Source of the DNA: Lachnospiraceae bacterium
GTDB lineage: Bacteria; Bacillota_A; Clostridia; Lachnospirales; Lachnospiraceae
NCBI GenBank assembly: GCA_009911175.1
Contig: QXWX01000185.1
Span: 1 to 5,837, forward strand
DNA: 5,837 nt
Reading direction: 5' to 3'
Below, one piece after another: positions 1-5,837 of this stretch; positions within the stretch are counted from its first letter, which is position 1, and each line of letters starts with the position of its first letter. A program made the translations under genes and the position numbers. Below the pieces are notes generated by a model. The model searched no databases, was not told the origin of the DNA, and saw only the letters and a program-made list of their open reading frames with translations.

Positions 1-78
1 CGGCTAGAACTTTTAACGACGCAATGGTGCGGAACAGGCAGTTCAGGAGTTCAATTTCTGGCCGGATGGAGTACTAGG
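1..78. other. Left flank with no identifiable gene
   Basis: This 78-base stretch lies downstream of the last operon gene. On the plus strand one frame is open from the window edge to a TAG at 75-77, so it could be the last 24 codons of a convergent gene entering from the left. The peptide (ending ISGRMEY) matches nothing I recognise and is too short to judge. I see no clear rho-independent terminator for the operon here. An imperfect pairing of GGATG (64-68) with CATCC (83-87) lacks a U-tract. Confidence 0.4.
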
Positions 79-81
79 TCA

Positions 82-1074
82 TCATCCCCCGGACCTTTGC
101 GGAATTCGGAACACCGGATCCGGGCCGAAAAGCGTCCGGTTCATTTCCTCATCCCGGAGTCCGTATGCCAGATAACAGGAGCACCATTTCCTGCGGCACA
201 GAAAGCTCTCTTCAAACAACTCCTTCCGATGCCCTCCATACCAGTTTTTGCCCGATGCCCCGCTGATATTGCATCTGCGGACATTTCCGTCGGCCTCCAC
301 AAAAAGCCGGTTGAGACACAGGCTTTCATCTGCGGGAACATGCCGGAGCTCTCGGTCAAAATAGGGATCTATGGATTGGAACAGCCGAATTTCCTTTTCT
401 GTATAAGGGCGTTTCAGGCCGTCCATTTTGTTGACCCAGAGATAAATCTCGTCAGGGAGCATTTCCCGGAGCCTGCGGAGCAGATCTATATTACCCGGCA
501 CCCCAACTGCGCCGGCGCAAAGAAGGATACCTTCCTCCCGAAGCCGAATGCATTTTGCGGCAAATTCTTCGCAGGCCGTCATCTCCGGATGGAAGGAAGC
601 CCAGAGACGAAGCTTTTCCCGCGCGCCCCCGAACTGATCGAAGATTTTGAGAGAGCGTTCGGCAGAGAAGCTCAGGTTGGTCTGCGCTCCCGCTGCCTCC
701 AGAACATCCCATTTCGTCAGGCCGCCGAGTCCCTCCCAATACCATGGGTGGACCAGGGCTTCCCCGTAGGGTACAACCATCAGGGCGCGGATGCTCAGAT
801 ATTCCGCACTTTCCCGCAGACTTTCACAGAACCGGAACCATTGTTCCCGGTCATCTTCCAATTCCCGTTTAGAAATCCGATGCTTGGAAAAAGGGCAATA
901 GCTGCATTGATAATTACAGCTCTTTAAGCTGCCCCGGTAGAGGACTGTACGGCGTTGGTCCTGTACGGCTCCCGGATTCTCTCCACAGTGTGCCAGGTCA
1001 TCGGCACAGAGGGATTTCGTTTCAGCTTCACATCGTTTGAAACTGCTGCATAAGAGGTCAGTTTGTCTGTCCAT
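82..1074 (-). CDS. STM4011-family-like radical SAM protein
   Basis: Predicted 330-residue cytoplasmic radical SAM enzyme. The signature is the CxxxCxxC motif at Cys53, Cys57 and Cys60 (SCNYQCSYCPF), which would bind the 4Fe-4S cluster that cleaves S-adenosylmethionine. The sequence just before it (LYRGSLKSCNY) resembles what I recall of the STM4011 family. A second cysteine group at 253, 268, 293, 298 and 300 could bind an auxiliary cluster, as in SPASM/twitch-type enzymes; that is inference. The 43 residues before the conserved start are an apparent extension with four cysteines (9, 15, 23, 30). No later usable start precedes the radical SAM motif, since the next Met is residue 99. The ATG at 1074 has a GGGAGA ribosome site 6 nt upstream and overlaps the preceding gene by 17 nt, suggesting coupled translation. 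The gene ends in tandem TGA TGA stops. It is last in the operon. The reaction and substrate are unknown. Confidence 0.87.
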   Translation of the reverse strand: MDRQTDLLCSSFKRCEAETKSLCADDLAHCGENPGAVQDQRRTVLYRGSLKSCNYQCSYCPFSKHRISKRELEDDREQWFRFCESLRESAEYLSIRALMVVPYGEALVHPWYWEGLGGLTKWDVLEAAGAQTNLSFSAERSLKIFDQFGGAREKLRLWASFHPEMTACEEFAAKCIRLREEGILLCAGAVGVPGNIDLLRRLREMLPDEIYLWVNKMDGLKRPYTEKEIRLFQSIDPYFDRELRHVPADESLCLNRLFVEADGNVRRCNISGASGKNWYGGHRKELFEESFLCRRKWCSCYLAYGLRDEEMNRTLFGPDPVFRIPQRSGG

Positions 1075-2545
1075 GCGCTGTCTCCCATTCTGCCATTTTT
1101 TCGCTGATTTCCCTGGAAATCAGCTGCGGGCCAAGATAATCGGAAAGGCTGAGCCCGTCATCCGTCAGTACCAGCCAGCCGGATTCTGCCTTCCGCTGTG
1201 CCGGATCACAGCACACATCCCGCAGCCCTGAACCGCAGTTGGTCCCGACTTCATCAGGAGAGCTCTGTTGCACAAGATACCCCTCCTCGATCCACTCCGA
1301 CAGCAGCGGAAATTCTTTCAGGATCTCCGTGCCGAAACGCTCCCGATACCTGCCGATATCCAGTCCAGGCCGGATCAGGAGATGGCGGATCACATATCTG
1401 CGTTTCTGTTCCTCACGGGAAAGTACGATCCCATGAGTGACAACGGTAAAATCCTGCGTATTTTCATAAGCGTATAATTCACGCAGGCAGTCCTGCCTTG
1501 TGATGGCGTATGGGGTGCAGAAATGCAGATTCCCTACATAGCTCCGTCCGCCGCAGCCCAATGCCAGGGAGTTGCCGAAGCCGCACTCGGAGAAGGGGCG
1601 CAGATGTTCTGATTTTCCCTGAATAATCTGCTCCATAGACGCCTGTTGGGATGCTGCTGACTTCCCCCGGACAATCTGCGCTATCGAACCCTGCCGGGAT
1701 CCTTCTGATTTTCTCCGTACAAACCGCCTCATAGAATCCTGCCGGAACCCTTCGGATTTCAAAAAGCCGCATGCTTCCCGATACTGCTCAAAAGCCTTTT
1801 CCGGATCCAGCACCATTCCGTCTCGCAGCTCCCTTTCCAGCCCTGCGCCGTGCTTCACATACAGAGGATACAAAAAAATCTCCTGGGGACCGAGAGACAC
1901 CGCCCGTTCCAACGATTCCAAAAGAGATTGGATTGTTTGCCCGGGAATCCCGTAGATAAAGTCCGCATTTACACAGTCAAATCCAAAGGAAAGCAAAAGC
2001 TCCAGGGCTTCCAGCGCCTTTTTCCCGCTATGCCCCCGGCGCAGAGTTTCCAGTTCTCTGTCACAAAAGCTCTGGATCCCCATGCTGACCCTTGTAATGC
2101 CACGCCCCTTCAGCAACTGTAATTTTTCTCTGTCCGTCTGGTTGGGAGCCGTTTCGATCACAATGCTCCGGTTTTCGTCAAAATGCAGATAAGATTCCGT
2201 CATGGCAAAGACCCGATCCAATTGCTGCGCATTCAAAAGAAGAGGCGTCCCACCGCCTATGGTAAAATCGGAAAATCTTGTGCCTGCCGGCTCCAGAATC
2301 CGGCGGTACTGGCTCAGCTGCCGTTCCACCGCGTCCAGATACCGTTCCATTTCCTCTGTCCCGGCTCCGGTGACAGAGAACAGATTGCAGTAGCCGCATT
2401 TCATCTGGCAGAAGGGAATGTGCAGATACAGCCCGCAGCCCGGTCCCGAAAGACTGTCGGCGCAGTCTGCCAGACGGATCCCGGTCAGCGGGCGGTAAGC
2501 CGTTTTGTGAGGATAGCTGTACATATATTGAATATACGGATTCAT
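1058..2545 (-). CDS. STM4012-family-like radical SAM protein (HemN/HemW-like)
   Basis: Predicted 495-residue radical SAM protein with the architecture of the HemN/HemW group. Visible landmarks are an N-terminal YPHKTAYRPL segment (11-20), the cluster-binding Cys46, Cys50 and Cys53, a GGGTP motif (97-101), VSMGIQSF (153-160), GIPGQT (199-204), GCGGRSY (330-336) and a C-terminal domain ending in LSDYLGPQLIS (467-477). The HNxxYW-type haem-binding motif of HemW is not visible, so a coproporphyrinogen oxidase or haem chaperone label would be misleading. The protein seems longer than I expect for the family because of two inserts: three 16-residue repeats at 265-312 and a Cys-containing stretch at about 426-456 (Cys437, 445, 446). 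The ATG at 2545 follows the upstream gene by 15 nt. An AGAGG (2558-2562) overlaps that gene's stop codon and is spaced rather far at 12 nt. The substrate is unknown; it presumably acts with the adjacent radical SAM protein. Confidence 0.88.
   Translation of the reverse strand: MNPYIQYMYSYPHKTAYRPLTGIRLADCADSLSGPGCGLYLHIPFCQMKCGYCNLFSVTGAGTEEMERYLDAVERQLSQYRRILEPAGTRFSDFTIGGGTPLLLNAQQLDRVFAMTESYLHFDENRSIVIETAPNQTDREKLQLLKGRGITRVSMGIQSFCDRELETLRRGHSGKKALEALELLLSFGFDCVNADFIYGIPGQTIQSLLESLERAVSLGPQEIFLYPLYVKHGAGLERELRDGMVLDPEKAFEQYREACGFLKSEGFRQDSMRRFVRRKSEGSRQGSIAQIVRGKSAASQQASMEQIIQGKSEHLRPFSECGFGNSLALGCGGRSYVGNLHFCTPYAITRQDCLRELYAYENTQDFTVVTHGIVLSREEQKRRYVIRHLLIRPGLDIGRYRERFGTEILKEFPLLSEWIEEGYLVQQSSPDEVGTNCGSGLRDVCCDPAQRKAESGWLVLTDDGLSLSDYLGPQLISREISEKMAEWETAHGQTN
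1081..1086 (-). promoter_or_regulatory. Ribosome binding site of the STM4011-like gene
   Basis: GGGAGA on the minus strand lies 6 nt before the ATG at 1074, inside the end of the upstream gene. It supports this start in spite of the apparently extended N-terminus. Confidence 0.6.
1610..1753 (-). repeat. Three 48-bp in-frame tandem repeats in the STM4012-like gene
   Basis: Units lie at 1610-1657, 1658-1705 and 1706-1753. They encode EGFRQDSMRRFVRRKS, EGSRQGSIAQIVRGKS and AASQQASMEQIIQGKS (residues 265-312). All keep the frame and end in a KS pair. The 1658 and 1706 units share about 35 of 48 bases, so the duplication is not very recent. The first-translated copy looks like the ancestral family segment (GFRQ.SMRRF); the other two are extra. 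Confidence 0.88.
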
Positions 2546-2560
2546 AGTAACAAAAAACCT

Positions 2561-3562
2561 CTATAAAAAGAAATGCTTATAAGGAACGGTATTGACCACA
2601 GGATGATTGATCCCATGGAACTGGCATCCGTCCTCCCCGTAGCAGGTTCCGTGATCGGAACAGCAGATGACAAAGGCATCGCCCCGCTTGTCTTTCCAAT
2701 GGTCAAACAGCCGCCCCAGCTCCCGGTCCGCATAGCGAAGCGCTGCCCCGTGGCTGGCCAGGTTATCATGGGAGCACCCATCCAGATAGAAGGAATTGGG
2801 ATAATGAATGGCGTCCACATTGAGGTACATAAAAATCCTCTGCCCCGGATCCGCAGCTTCCAGCTTTCTCAAAATAAAGTCTACCTGATTTTTGGTGCTG
2901 TCCTTTACCCCGCAGCCAAAGGACGGGTTCCAGTAGCTTTTCCGGAAATATCCGGGAAATACCTTTCCCAGGTCTGAGCGTTTGTCAAAAAAGGAGACGC
3001 CTCCGACACACCAGGTATCATAGCCTTCCTTTTCCAGCCCTTCCATGATCGTGCCGCCGGAAAATCCGTAAGCCCCCGGGGGCGTTTTTCTGCCCATGCC
3101 GATCTGCCTGGGAAAAAACAGCATTTCCCGGTCAGCCAGATTTTTCGCCTCATGATCCGCAGGCAGGAAACCGGCAAACATGGCGTGATGGGACGGCCAG
3201 GTAAAATTCCCCGGAGCCTGGCATTTTTTCCAGGAGCCGTAACGATTCAGCACTGGGGTCGCTCCGTCCTCCTGCTCCTTCACCGCCGCGTCATACCGAA
3301 GGGTGTCCAGACATATGAACAAAATGTCCATCTGCCCGACAACCTGGTTCATATCCACGGAAGACGTTCTCCGCGCTTTGGCAGAAGAGAACAGCCGGAA
3401 AGGGACCTCTCCGGCATGCTCGTGCGGGGCTTGCCGATTGTCCTGAACTTCCATGTTATTTGCTTCTTTCTGTTTTTCCTGAACTTCCATGCTATTTGTT
3501 TCTTTCTGGTTTCCCTGAACTTCCATATTTTTTGCTTCTTTCTGATTTTCTTGTACATCCAT
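2561..3562 (-). CDS. STM4013-family-like hydrolase, alkaline phosphatase/sulfatase superfamily
   Basis: Predicted 333-residue metal-dependent hydrolase. Alkaline-phosphatase-superfamily landmarks are DILFICLDTLRYD (79-91, with Asp86 as likely metal ligand), NFTWPSHHAMFAGFLP (119-134), NVDAIHYP (248-255) and a C-terminal CSDHG (301-305) followed by FHGINHP (315-321). Thr121 sits about where sulfatases carry the Cys/Ser that becomes formylglycine, so a Thr nucleophile, as in phosphotransferase branches of the superfamily, is more likely than sulfatase activity; this is inference. No signal peptide is seen. The first 70 residues are unusual: three 12-residue repeats plus a partial fourth, each starting with Met, then a linker. 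The family-like part starts near Met71 (MNQVVGQMDILF, codon 3350-3352), giving 263 residues, but I see no good ribosome site there. The ATG at 3562 has AGGAAAG (3575-3581) 12 nt upstream, which is also weak, so the true start is uncertain. Confidence 0.83.
   Translation of the reverse strand: MDVQENQKEAKNMEVQGNQKETNSMEVQEKQKEANNMEVQDNRQAPHEHAGEVPFRLFSSAKARRTSSVDMNQVVGQMDILFICLDTLRYDAAVKEQEDGATPVLNRYGSWKKCQAPGNFTWPSHHAMFAGFLPADHEAKNLADREMLFFPRQIGMGRKTPPGAYGFSGGTIMEGLEKEGYDTWCVGGVSFFDKRSDLGKVFPGYFRKSYWNPSFGCGVKDSTKNQVDFILRKLEAADPGQRIFMYLNVDAIHYPNSFYLDGCSHDNLASHGAALRYADRELGRLFDHWKDKRGDAFVICCSDHGTCYGEDGCQFHGINHPVVNTVPYKHFFL
3445..3562 (-). repeat. 36-bp in-frame tandem repeats at the 5' end of the STM4013-like gene
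   Basis: Three full units lie at 3445-3480, 3481-3516 and 3517-3552, with a partial one at 3553-3562 and a trailing partial unit before 3445. Neighbouring units match at 32 of 36 bases. They encode 12-residue blocks such as MDVQENQKEAKN, MEVQGNQKETNS and MEVQEKQKEANN, then MEVQDNRQAP. The region is rich in Gln, Lys, Glu and Asn and probably disordered or helical. Confidence 0.92.
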
Positions 3563-3590
3563 AATGCTTTTGCACTTTCCTGTTTGATAC

Positions 3591-4805
3591 TCACGGCAGA
3601 TTTATCCGGCGTTCAGTATACAGCCACTCCTTCATCATTTCCGCCTGATGGAGGTAGATCCTGTTCTGGTCATAAATATCCTGGTAAATGAGATCGCCCT
3701 GGCCGTTCAGTTCAATGATCCTGGGCCGCAGGCTCTCCTTTTCCAGAAGTACATCGATCCCCACGCTCCGCAGTTCCGGATAGCATCCTGCCGCACGGAT
3801 GCAGAGCTGCTCCACATCTTCCATGACATGACACGGAAGCCCAAGCTCATTCCCCTTTAAAGGGTGGTTATTCAGATGCAGATTGGTAATGGGACCGGAA
3901 GAAAGACGGGCCAGGATAAAATCCATCCTCCCGTCCTGAACCACTGCCCGCAAGTCATAGGAAAAGCCGTTGTGCTCCGCCTTGGCATACCACCGTTCAA
4001 CGATACAGCCCAGTTCCAGAAGCCGCCCGATCATGGAAAGTACCTGCTTCCTGTCCGTAAACCGCCGGAGCCGCTTCGTATTGACCAAACGTCCGGTTTC
4101 GGGATTCTCCATTGCGCAGGTGTAGAGGATCATCCGGCCGGAGCGGGGCTGCCAGCGGAAAGCCGCCGCTCCGGCGGCACCGGAACCGCAGACCGGTTTA
4201 ATAAACACCTGAAAAATGCGGCGACGCTCCATAGAATCCAGCAGCAGATCCGCCCGCCCAACGCCATCCAACGTCTCAGCCACTGGAAGCACAGCCTGCC
4301 CAACGCTGTCCAACGTCTCAGCCACTGGGAACACAGCCCGTCCGATGCCATCCAACTCCTCGGTCACCGGAATCCCGGCCTCTGCCAGCCGCCTTTTACA
4401 CGCTCTTTTATCCAAAAGAGCGAGGATATCCTCCGGTTTGTTTAAAAACGTGATCTGCCGTTTCTTCCCCAGTTCTGCCAGCCATTGCAGCTTTTTTTCA
4501 TAATCCTGCGCCAGGATATTCAACTCATCCAGGCAGCAGCTTTCCCACAAAGGCGGGTCAATTTTCAGAAACACGTTTTCCCATGCGGTTTCATTCCAAA
4601 AAGGATCTGCCAGAGCCGTATCATCTCGAAAATCATTTTTCAAAACCAAATCCTTCCGAAGCGGACTTGCCGGCGAATCCGCGCTCCGGAAGGGAAACTC
4701 CTTCCAGTCCAGCAGCCGGAACGATATCCCTTCCGCCTCTGCGCCCTTTTCCAGATAGATGGTCCGTTTTGTACCGGGACTGCCGAGGAGAACTGCCTGC
4801 CTCAT
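3591..4805 (-). CDS. STM4014-family-like ATP-grasp protein
   Basis: Predicted 404-residue ATP-grasp enzyme, a fold that usually activates a carboxylate by phosphorylation and joins it to an amine or thiol. Supporting landmarks are NKPEDILALLDKRACKRRL (122-140), AGIPV (143-147), a lysine plus glycine-rich nucleotide loop FIKPVCGSGAAG (201-212), YDLRAVVQDGR (283-293), SVGIDVLLE (347-355) and the magnesium-binding IIELNGQGDL (363-372, Glu365 and Asn367). The family-like linker after AGIPV is expanded by three 14-residue repeats (144-185). The ATG at 4805 overlaps the preceding stop codon as ATGA with no clear ribosome site, so translation is probably coupled to the LRR gene. The ligation substrate is unknown. 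Assignment to the ATP-grasp fold is fairly firm; the STM4014 family name rests on motif recall and neighbours. Confidence 0.84.
   Translation of the reverse strand: MRQAVLLGSPGTKRTIYLEKGAEAEGISFRLLDWKEFPFRSADSPASPLRKDLVLKNDFRDDTALADPFWNETAWENVFLKIDPPLWESCCLDELNILAQDYEKKLQWLAELGKKRQITFLNKPEDILALLDKRACKRRLAEAGIPVTEELDGIGRAVFPVAETLDSVGQAVLPVAETLDGVGRADLLLDSMERRRIFQVFIKPVCGSGAAGAAAFRWQPRSGRMILYTCAMENPETGRLVNTKRLRRFTDRKQVLSMIGRLLELGCIVERWYAKAEHNGFSYDLRAVVQDGRMDFILARLSSGPITNLHLNNHPLKGNELGLPCHVMEDVEQLCIRAAGCYPELRSVGIDVLLEKESLRPRIIELNGQGDLIYQDIYDQNRIYLHQAEMMKEWLYTERRINLP
4251..4376 (-). repeat. Three 42-bp in-frame tandem repeats in the STM4014-like gene
   Basis: Units lie at 4251-4292, 4293-4334 and 4335-4376 and encode GIPVTEELDGIGRA, VFPVAETLDSVGQA and VLPVAETLDGVGRA (residues 144-185). 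The two extra copies share about 36 of 42 bases. Each is more diverged (about 28 of 42 for the middle unit) from the first-translated copy, which contains the family-like AGIPV segment that was probably the template. Confidence 0.88.
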
Positions 4806-5659
4806 TCGGTCAGCATGGCGTTCATCCAGATCTCGCCTTTGTATTCCTCCGGCTCATAGCGCTCCGACGCGTCAACCTTCGCCGGAAGAGCCTGCAGATC
4901 CTTTACCATGCCCTCTGACATATAATGAAAATGCACATCCAGCTCCTCGATATTGGGATAGGAAGGAATCGTTTCCAGGAGCAGGGCGCCGCCCTTGTCT
5001 GTCAGGGTGCCGTTGGCCAGATCCAGTACCTTCAGCTGCTTCATATATTTGCATTCCAGCACTGCCCGAACCAGTTCATCCTGGATCTCGCTGTCCTCAA
5101 TCCCCAGGTGCGCGAGCTTTGGAAAATCCGACTTTTCGAGAAGGGTTTTGATGGTGTCCGCGCTGCCGTCAAATCCGTAATCCTCAATTCCGATGTAAAG
5201 AACCAGCTTTTTCAGATTCGGCAGTTTGGCATTCTGGATCTCCTGGATCACCGACACCGGAAGCCCGCCGCAGATGATAGTCAGAGATTCCAGTCCCGGA
5301 TGGCTGATCTCTCCCAGCACCAGCTCCGAGCTTCCCTTGACAGTCAGTTCTTTTAAGTGAGGAAGGGCCTGCCAGAGCCGGCTGTAATTGCCCTGGATGA
5401 TCCAGGAAACCTCGCACTCCTCATAGTCCATGTCCCCTACAAACAGACTCTCAACATGGGAAAACCGTTCCTTGTTCTCCACGATCTGATCCAGGATGAT
5501 CTGGCAGCTGTCGTCCCAGGATTCACCCCAGCATCCAATCACCAGACCTGATACCTGGGGAAATTCCGGATCGTTCAAGATATCCTCCACCATGGTTCCG
5601 GGACCCTTTCCGTTCTCAAACTGTTCATAATCATACACATATTTTTTACTCTTTCCCAT
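4802..5659 (-). CDS. STM4015-family-like leucine-rich-repeat protein
   Basis: Predicted 285-residue soluble protein. The first ~95 residues contain stretches that fit what I recall of the family, namely LVIGCWGESW (39-48), LFVGDMDYEECEVSWIIQG (72-90). From about 99 on there is a run of irregular leucine-rich repeats: LPHLKELTV (99-107), HPGLESLTI (120-128), LPNLKKLVL (146-154), FPKLAHLGI (179-187), MKQLKVLDL (206-214) and YPNIEELDV (234-242). These resemble ribonuclease-inhibitor-like LRRs, which usually bind proteins. No signal peptide, membrane segment or enzymatic motif is evident. The start at 5659 was chosen because a near-perfect AAAGGAGG lies 5 nt upstream; a Met nine codons earlier (5686) would put that ribosome site inside the gene. 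It is the first gene of the operon. It may be a scaffold, partner-recognition subunit or substrate of the enzymes downstream; the sequence does not decide between these. Confidence 0.84.
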   Translation of the reverse strand: MGKSKKYVYDYEQFENGKGPGTMVEDILNDPEFPQVSGLVIGCWGESWDDSCQIILDQIVENKERFSHVESLFVGDMDYEECEVSWIIQGNYSRLWQALPHLKELTVKGSSELVLGEISHPGLESLTIICGGLPVSVIQEIQNAKLPNLKKLVLYIGIEDYGFDGSADTIKTLLEKSDFPKLAHLGIEDSEIQDELVRAVLECKYMKQLKVLDLANGTLTDKGGALLLETIPSYPNIEELDVHFHYMSEGMVKDLQALPAKVDASERYEPEEYKGEIWMNAMLTE

Positions 5660-5664
5660 AAAAA

Positions 5665-5672
5665 CCTCCTTT
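5665..5672 (-). promoter_or_regulatory. Strong ribosome binding site of the operon's first gene
   Basis: AAAGGAGG on the minus strand lies 5 nt before the ATG at 5659. It fixes the start of the LRR gene and is the strongest ribosome site in the window. Confidence 0.85.
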
Positions 5673-5719
5673 GCGGCAAGATGCAAGGCATCGTGAACAG
5701 CAGCTGCATTTTTCTTATT

Positions 5720-5748
5720 ATTATACGCAATTATACAGTGGGGTTCAA
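5720..5748 (-). promoter_or_regulatory. Probable sigma70/sigmaA promoter of the five-gene operon
   Basis: On the minus strand a -35 box TTGAAC (5743-5748) is followed after exactly 17 nt by a perfect -10 box TATAAT (5720-5725). A second TATAAT lies within the spacer but is only 7 nt from the -35 box. Transcription would start near 5713, giving a leader of about 54 nt. That leader contains a short inverted repeat, GATGC-AAG-GCATC (5680-5692), before the ribosome site. No operator was recognised. Confidence 0.75.
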
Positions 5749-5767
5749 CTGTTTTTTGTCCTATAGG

Positions 5768-5837
5768 GTGCGCCCAGCTAAGGGCTTGGAATTCGGTGGG
5801 TGAAAGTCCTACGGTGTAAGGTACAAGCTATACCGCA
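5768..5837 (+). mobile_element. Group II intron, 5' end (partial, runs off the window)
   Basis: From 5768 the plus strand reads GTGCGCCCAGCTAAGGG, which fits the conserved GUGYG 5' boundary of group II introns and resembles the start of lactococcal Ll.LtrB-type introns as I remember it. GGTGGGTGAAAGTCCTAC at 5796-5813 is also typical of the first part of domain I. Only the first 70 nt are in the window; the reverse transcriptase gene and domains V/VI would lie to the right. The exon side ends at 5767. The intron points away from the operon. Confidence 0.75.

Follow-up and report, generated by a model that had tools for sequence, protein, structure and literature searches.

What do the five proteins of the STM4011-STM4015 set do, and on what do they act? 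The question was raised by a 5837-bp stretch of Lachnospiraceae DNA (contig QXWX01000185.1; the whole stretch is called the window here), in which five consecutive minus-strand open reading frames (ORFs) fill positions 5659-82. They encode a leucine-rich-repeat (LRR) protein, an ATP-grasp ligase, an alkaline-phosphatase-superfamily enzyme and two radical S-adenosylmethionine (SAM) proteins, and all five scored above the cut-offs of the NCBIfam models STM4015 to STM4011 (Table 1). An earlier note on this DNA had named these families and matched their order to the numbering of the Salmonella loci; the profile search returned all five names, and the order recurred in the related loci and named records described below. 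The operon is thus real and conserved, and its families have names but are uncharacterised.

In this study, we computed the families, their order and co-occurrence, the conservation of catalytic-type residues and of the terminal Glu of STM4015, and the fold of the ligase. We propose, as the new point, that this Glu and the neighbouring LysX/ArgX/RimK-like ligase form an acceptor/ligase pair. The cassette spans Salmonella, gut Lachnospiraceae, Deinococcus and actinomycetes with no assigned function found, and naming Glu285 and STM4014 makes its function testable. In the open-licence literature no function was found for the set, and an assignment in subscription journals is possible. The open-licence passages that mention the STM locus names only list a locus, no open-licence paper was found for the family names, Q64V53 or 2RA8, topic searches of that literature gave no title on the set, and the excerpted part of PMC8939145 does not mention it.

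The C-terminal Glu of STM4015 and the adjoining ligase

Scanning genomes with STM4013 gave 122 confirmed loci, of which the best 80 were retained (L008-L087, the related loci; record titles Lachnospiraceae, Hungatella, Eubacterium and the like). In 106 of the 107 rows compared, which cover six phyla, Glu was the last residue of STM4015; five of the rows were re-fetches of places already counted. The sole exception, L052, carries two in-frame stops, and the frame beyond them ends ..IALLTE. The tail reads AMLTE in most of the 80 loci, AMYTE in Salmonella, PSLTE in Paenibacillus, IAVSE in Methylobacterium, VALGE in Deinococcus, VAVGE, VEVSE, TQVAE and similar in actinomycetes, PMITE in Bacteroides and CSVAE in Calothrix. 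When ten STM4015 sequences from four phyla were compared, the last residue was the only invariant one of the tail. The best 120 of 2085 homologues, which are close kin, all end in MLTE. The other families served as an internal control: in the 80 loci, the commonest final residue accounted for 12/76 sequences of STM4011, 47/77 of STM4012, 42/79 of STM4013, 10/73 of STM4014 and 72/73 of STM4015. The end of STM4013 was partly conserved as well (FFL or FFI in 54 of 79). The final Glu of STM4015 is encoded by GAA 67 times and by GAG five times, and 71 of 72 related loci have a Tyr or Trp eight residues from the C-terminus.

STM4015 is acidic, with an isoelectric point (pI) of 4.4-4.5 in six of six sequences. 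Its AlphaFold2 model had a mean predicted local distance difference test score (pLDDT) of 90.7, and the top Foldseek match was 2ra8 (TMq 0.88, 42% identity), the solved B. fragilis homologue, which also ends in Glu (PMITE tail). Mean pLDDT was 77 for residues 271-280 and 52 for residues 281-285. D76, E83, S85, W86 and I87, in a loop, were likewise invariant in the ten sequences; residues 79-82 of this loop had a pLDDT below 50, and the loop is not retained in one Embleya orphan copy (L154). The E83-S85-W86-I87 loop may be a docking site or a second modification site.

STM4015 genes outside the operon, in Streptomyces cadmiisoli and both Embleya records, keep the tail, and these records also carry the operon. 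A DNA pattern for AM-TE tails was then applied to nine Bacillota genomes. It gave one match in each of G001-G004, which was the STM4015 gene, and none in the other five because the pattern is specific to AM-TE tails; the reversed-pattern control gave one match over all nine genomes. In four actinomycete records the tail pattern gave 15 matches (three for the reversed control), and 11 of these were STM4015 proteins. The other four comprised three short frames, one of them without a stop, and one other protein, which by recognition alone we take to be reductase-like. Several LRR proteins share one tail, which suggests that several of them serve as substrates of one enzyme set.

The best PDB profile match of STM4014 was LysX (1uc8). 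With its AlphaFold2 model (pLDDT 86.2), the ArgX-LysW complex 3vpb was the best match in both Foldseek and VIA. In VIA, RimK rows were level with those of ArgX and LysX, and the graspetide ligases PsnB and MdnB ranked third and 47th in Foldseek. MptN and CofF, which are named glutamate ligases, were among the family matches, and the RimK model TIGR00768 gave 15 bits, below its cut-off of 143.4. The pI of STM4014 was 6.1 in the window and 6.7, 8.6, 9.1, 9.7 and 10.1 elsewhere. Judged by its model, STM4014 resembles ATP-grasp enzymes of the RimK/LysX/ArgX-like fold; the fold alone does not prove the reaction. LysX, ArgX and RimK are ligases that join an amino compound to the C-terminal Glu of a protein.

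The pairing of the two genes was followed in genomes where the set is split. In the five such genomes among the 80 loci, STM4015, STM4014 and STM4011 were all present above cut-off; STM4015 and STM4014 were adjacent in all five, which are kin by title, and STM4011 lay elsewhere. A sixth split genome, G236, carries STM4015, STM4014 and the other three genes on three different contigs, and the pair is not kept there, which makes five of six paired overall. The earlier note had considered the LRR protein as a substrate or scaffold, and that idea is strengthened by the conserved C-terminal Glu and the adjoining RimK/LysX-like ligase.

Radical SAM enzymes and phosphatases

The remaining genes point to the chemistry that might follow. 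STM4012 has an invariant CxxxCxxC motif (C46, C50, C53), and its PDB profile matches included HemN 1olt (2.8e-55) and NocN (2.2e-35), the first aligned over positions 13-417 of 443 and the second over 41-317. It missed the equivalog cut-offs of HemN (141.4 of 324.95 bits) and HemW (155.4 of 205.4). STM4011 has a CxxxCxxC motif and five further Cys, these eight being invariant in six sequences, and appears to be a SPASM/twitch-like radical SAM protein. Its profile showed a weak match (0.0037) to the C-terminal part of SkfB, a thioether-forming enzyme.

The best PDB profile match of STM4013 was the nucleotide pyrophosphatase/phosphodiesterase 2gsn, with the Asp and Thr region aligned; the match was weak and came in two short pieces, with many sulfatases further down the list. 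Sulfatases use a Cys or Ser nucleophile for formylglycine. In eight STM4013 sequences the nucleophile position was instead held by an invariant T121, accompanied by invariant D86, D303 and H304; we presume the roles of these four residues by analogy to nucleotide pyrophosphatase. The Pfam Sulfatase model was above its cut-off on STM4013 (39.4 vs 25). Because of the Thr at the nucleophile position together with D86, D303 and H304, phosphoester cleavage or transfer seems likelier for STM4013 than sulfatase activity.

A second candidate phosphatase was found in most related loci. Of the 77 related loci in which STM4011 is present, 65 have a Cof-type HAD phosphatase domain fused to its C-terminus, as detected with a hidden Markov model built from 24 fused copies; the NCBIfam STM4011 model (278 positions) covers the radical SAM part only. 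Among the other 12, one had a HAD match 1.1 kb downstream, none was found in eight (L008-L010, L015, L035, L052, L075 and L086), and three could not be judged. The fusion also occurs in G155, G236 and Bacteroides (stretches L112, L113 and L126), and in Salmonella the HAD is a separate gene overlapping STM4011 (L001:11961-12695). The Paenibacillus, Methylobacterium and actinomycete stretches yielded no HAD. In the window, STM4011 has no HAD and ends ..FRIPQRSGG, the point where the HAD begins in L014, and no remnant was found downstream of STM4011 in L008. Since the domain is missing in the window and in its nearest relatives L008-L010, the word 'complete', applied to the operon in the earlier note, holds for the five named families and is otherwise too strong. 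STM4013 and the HAD would be two phosphate-cleaving activities, which suggests that the pathway passes through a phosphorylated intermediate.

Locus layout and conservation of the set

Table 1. Positions of the operon genes and associated elements in the window
Feature	Position	Strand	Details
STM4015-family leucine-rich-repeat protein	4802..5659	-	285 aa; NF038076 327.4 bits, cut-off 275
STM4014-family ATP-grasp ligase	3591..4805	-	404 aa; NF038074 312.9 bits, cut-off 175
STM4013-family alkaline-phosphatase-superfamily enzyme	2561..3562	-	333 aa; NF038075 384.5 bits, cut-off 250
STM4012-family HemN-like radical SAM protein	1058..2545	-	495 aa; NF006067 483.3 bits, cut-off 380
STM4011-family radical SAM protein	82..1074	-	330 aa; NF038073 294.2 bits, cut-off 200
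C-terminal tail of STM4015, IWMNAMLTE-COOH, terminal Glu = E285; proposed attachment site	4805..4831	-	
STM4015 loop, residues 76-90 (DMDYEECEVSWIIQG)	5390..5434	-	candidate docking or second modification site
Promoter-like TTGAAC-17-TATAAT upstream of STM4015	5720..5748	-	10/12 consensus matches
Shine-Dalgarno-like AGGAGG, 5 nt upstream of STM4015 ATG	5665..5670	-	direct reading; L008 has AGGAGG too

In transcription order, the junctions are a 4-bp overlap, a 28-bp gap, a 15-bp gap and a 17-bp overlap. Graspetide systems have a short precursor peptide with leader and core beside the ATP-grasp enzyme; between the five genes here the gaps are at most 28 bp, no dedicated small-ORF search having been made. 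The ATG at 5659 was chosen as the start of STM4015 over the TTG at 5686 of the ORF list, AGGAGG lying 5 nt ahead of the ATG. Over both strands of the searched region two promoter-like sites were present, against a mean of 0.5 (sd 0.8) in shuffled sequence, and a stretch similar to the site in Table 1 is visible upstream in L008 too. Because of the tight junctions and the TTGAAC-17-TATAAT site ahead of STM4015, the five genes are likely to lie on a single predicted transcript. STM4013, STM4014 and STM4012 each contain a tandem repeat (3436-3562, 4252-4356 and 1634-1745; unit lengths 36, 42 and 48 bp, respectively). The units are multiples of three, and these in-frame repeats enlarge the three proteins where alignment with other phyla is poor.

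The nearest relative, L008, is titled a Lachnospiraceae isolate (two long alignments, 96.9% and 94.8% identity), which agrees with the Firmicute host of the earlier note. Homology to L008 is limited to window positions 71-5765, so both outer ends of the window are different sequence. Positions 1-70, downstream of STM4011, differ from L008. Positions 5768-5837 start on the plus strand with GTGCGCCC and contain GGGTGAAAGTCC, a stretch which we take to resemble a group II intron at its 5' end; one Rfam match to such an intron was obtained there, below threshold (12.7 bits, gathering 49, E 0.68). Neither end matched plasmids, nor did the window as a whole by megablast.

All five genes in the order 4015-4014-4013-4012-4011 were found in 71 of the 80 related loci, with other genes inserted within the set in a few (e.g. 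L013, L023, L027, L029 and L068). A contig end cuts the set in four of the other nine (L017, L025, L033 and L077), and it is truly split in L066, L071, L074, L079 and L084. The same order was found in 11 named records from four phyla: Salmonella, Paenibacillus, Methylobacterium, three Deinococcus, two Streptomyces, two Embleya and Nonomuraea, the Embleya and Nonomuraea stretches being read by tblastn. Co-occurrence was examined in 249 genomes from the phylum of G001, the search centre, which was chosen for having the set. Each of the five families was above cut-off in the identical six genomes (G001, G026, G070, G109, G155 and G236), a count in which related genomes are not independent samples. 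At E 0.001, matches rose to seven genomes for STM4015, nine for STM4013, 25 for STM4011, 58 for STM4014 and 239 for STM4012, the six included; the extra genomes hold superfamily relatives below cut-off.

Two records weigh against a strict set. Streptomyces albidoflavus has STM4013, with the other four absent within the 16.9 kb read, and Bacteroides finegoldii has STM4015, STM4014, a 4011-HAD fusion and a fragment of STM4013 (54 residues aligned), with STM4012 not detected. The view of the earlier note that the set travels together is therefore supported by the six of 249 genomes and not as an invariable rule, given these two exceptions and the six split genomes. Its overall interpretation was partly supported: names, order, host and joint travel stood, and completeness and invariable co-occurrence did not.

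Several neighbouring observations were also made. The lone STM4013 relative on the S. albidoflavus plasmid (L006:8085-8879) adjoins a NUDIX hydrolase and a lasso-peptide B2-like gene, with type I-E CRISPR genes near. The B. finegoldii STM4015 (L126:7764-10216) has an N-terminal WGR domain. A Calothrix plasmid (L125:2014-3288) carries an STM4015 relative of 424 aa whose tail reads ..RYCSVAE, the other four genes being absent in the 11.2 kb read. The gene matched in Agrobacterium (26%) is sulfatase-like and more distant, and in the single record examined it had none of the other four genes close by. In Methylobacterium, Deinococcus, Streptomyces and Nonomuraea the operon is flanked by a DUF6745 protein and a protein of ~99 aa (L003:4516-5841, L004:11094-12403, L005:3168-4632, L128-L131). 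The pair was not found in the stretches of Salmonella, Paenibacillus, Embleya or the 80 related loci, and it was therefore taken as a lineage partner. A phage collection contained two Salmonella records and one Escherichia record with STM4013 at 51%. L001 and H27-H29, filed as Salmonella plasmid or phage, carry the Salmonella operon or its STM4013; these records may be chromosomal DNA, because the operon in L001 adjoins glnA, glnL and typA. A near-mode search, which did not seek more diverged DNA, gave no E. coli genome that matches the greater part of the Salmonella operon (L001:8000-11980). A role in anti-phage defence was rejected, since the radical SAM domains drew only weak viperin-like and PDC-M51A matches in PADLOC, which we attribute to the general likeness among radical SAM proteins.

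Proposed pathway and comparison with known systems

We give roughly even chances to the operon being a carrier-protein or protein-modification pathway built on STM4015. In this pathway, the acidic LRR protein would present its C-terminal tail ending in Glu. STM4014 would activate a carboxylate of this Glu with ATP and join the amino group of a small molecule to it. The attached group would then be reworked by the HemN-like STM4012, the SPASM/twitch-like STM4011 and the phosphate-cleaving activities of STM4013 and, in most related loci, the HAD domain. In the carrier version the product would be released, as for LysW; alternatively, the group would remain on the LRR protein permanently. The ligation, its site, the order of the steps and the departure of a product are what we infer.

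Part of the same evidence can be read differently. STM4014 might link a carboxylate of the tail or loop to another side chain within STM4015 as an ester or amide, with the radical SAM enzymes modifying residues of the LRR protein (the tail Tyr/Trp or the ECEVSWI loop) and nothing external attached. Such maturation, similar to that of graspetides and other ribosomally synthesized and post-translationally modified peptides, would fit the Foldseek ranks of PsnB and MdnB, the conserved low-confidence loop, the Tyr or Trp near the end and the weak SkfB match of STM4011, and we consider it unlikely. The tail might also be a docking or sorting signal only, on an LRR scaffold that holds the four enzymes while these act on free metabolites and STM4014 ligates two small molecules. 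This reading seems improbable to us, since the free C-terminal Glu is conserved and is the group used by the closest solved relatives of the adjoining ligase, the STM4015 copies away from the operon, on operon-carrying records, have the same tail, and STM4015 and STM4014 stay paired in most split genomes.

A further reading is that STM4014 lengthens the tail as RimK does, adding Glu or another amino acid to STM4015 for regulation only, with the radical SAM and phosphatase genes making an unrelated metabolite. The VIA tie between RimK, ArgX and LysX and the matches to MptN and CofF are consistent with it. However, the five families are present or absent together and keep one order over four phyla, which argues for one pathway and leaves this reading little probability.

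How does the proposed pathway, in which STM4014 loads the tail of STM4015, compare with known systems? One likeness is to the cassette of the annotated Salmonella enterica locus, which has the same five families in the same order; the window differs from the wider cassette in the HAD that its STM4011 lacks and in the repeats that enlarge STM4012, STM4013 and STM4014. STM4012 aligns with HemN and NocN but misses the HemN and HemW equivalog cut-offs, and the nucleotide pyrophosphatase/phosphodiesterase branch gives STM4013 its best, although weak and fragmentary, PDB profile match. With RimK/S6 the system shares the ligase fold and a protein C-terminal Glu as the proposed acceptor, whereas the neighbour protein is not S6, the RimK cut-off was missed and four further families travel along. 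In the pearlin (PEARL) pathways to 3-thiaglutamate and 3-thiahomoleucine, an amino acid is built on the C-terminus of a carrier peptide and a radical SAM enzyme is involved (part of PMC9303977). The present set differs in that no LanB-like family was among the matches of the five proteins, and here the ATP-grasp enzyme would load the carrier.

The partner genes of LysW are of the LysZ, LysY, LysJ and LysK type and include a kinase, a reductase and an aminotransferase; none of these is among the five window genes, which instead encode radical SAM proteins and phosphatases. The likeness to LysW/LysX is that an ATP-grasp enzyme of the same fold adjoins an acidic protein with a conserved C-terminal Glu and a hydrophobic-small-Glu tail. 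LysW has an EDWGE tail and Zn-binding Cys, and LysX has a GSWGR motif (part of PMC10433800). STM4015 is a 285-aa LRR protein rather than a 54-residue zinc protein, and its tail is AMLTE or similar, with no invariant Cys in ten sequences. The loop of STM4014 aligned with GSWGR reads GSGAAG, GSGASG or GSSASG in eight of nine members and GSGALG in one. Since the EDWGE tail, the zinc Cys, the GSWGR motif and the partner genes all differ, the set would act in the manner of amino-group carrier systems but lie outside that family. It is possible, at somewhat less than even chances, that this is a second kind of amino-group carrier system, in which the C-terminal Glu of an LRR protein is loaded by a LysX-like ligase and the cargo is rebuilt by radical SAM enzymes and phosphatases, in at least four phyla and with several LRR carriers per genome in some actinomycetes. 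If true, this would offer a role for 2ra8, a structure released in 2007 as an uncharacterised protein, and would extend carrier-protein biosynthesis, known for LysW-type zinc proteins and pearlin peptides, to radical chemistry on a leucine-rich-repeat scaffold.

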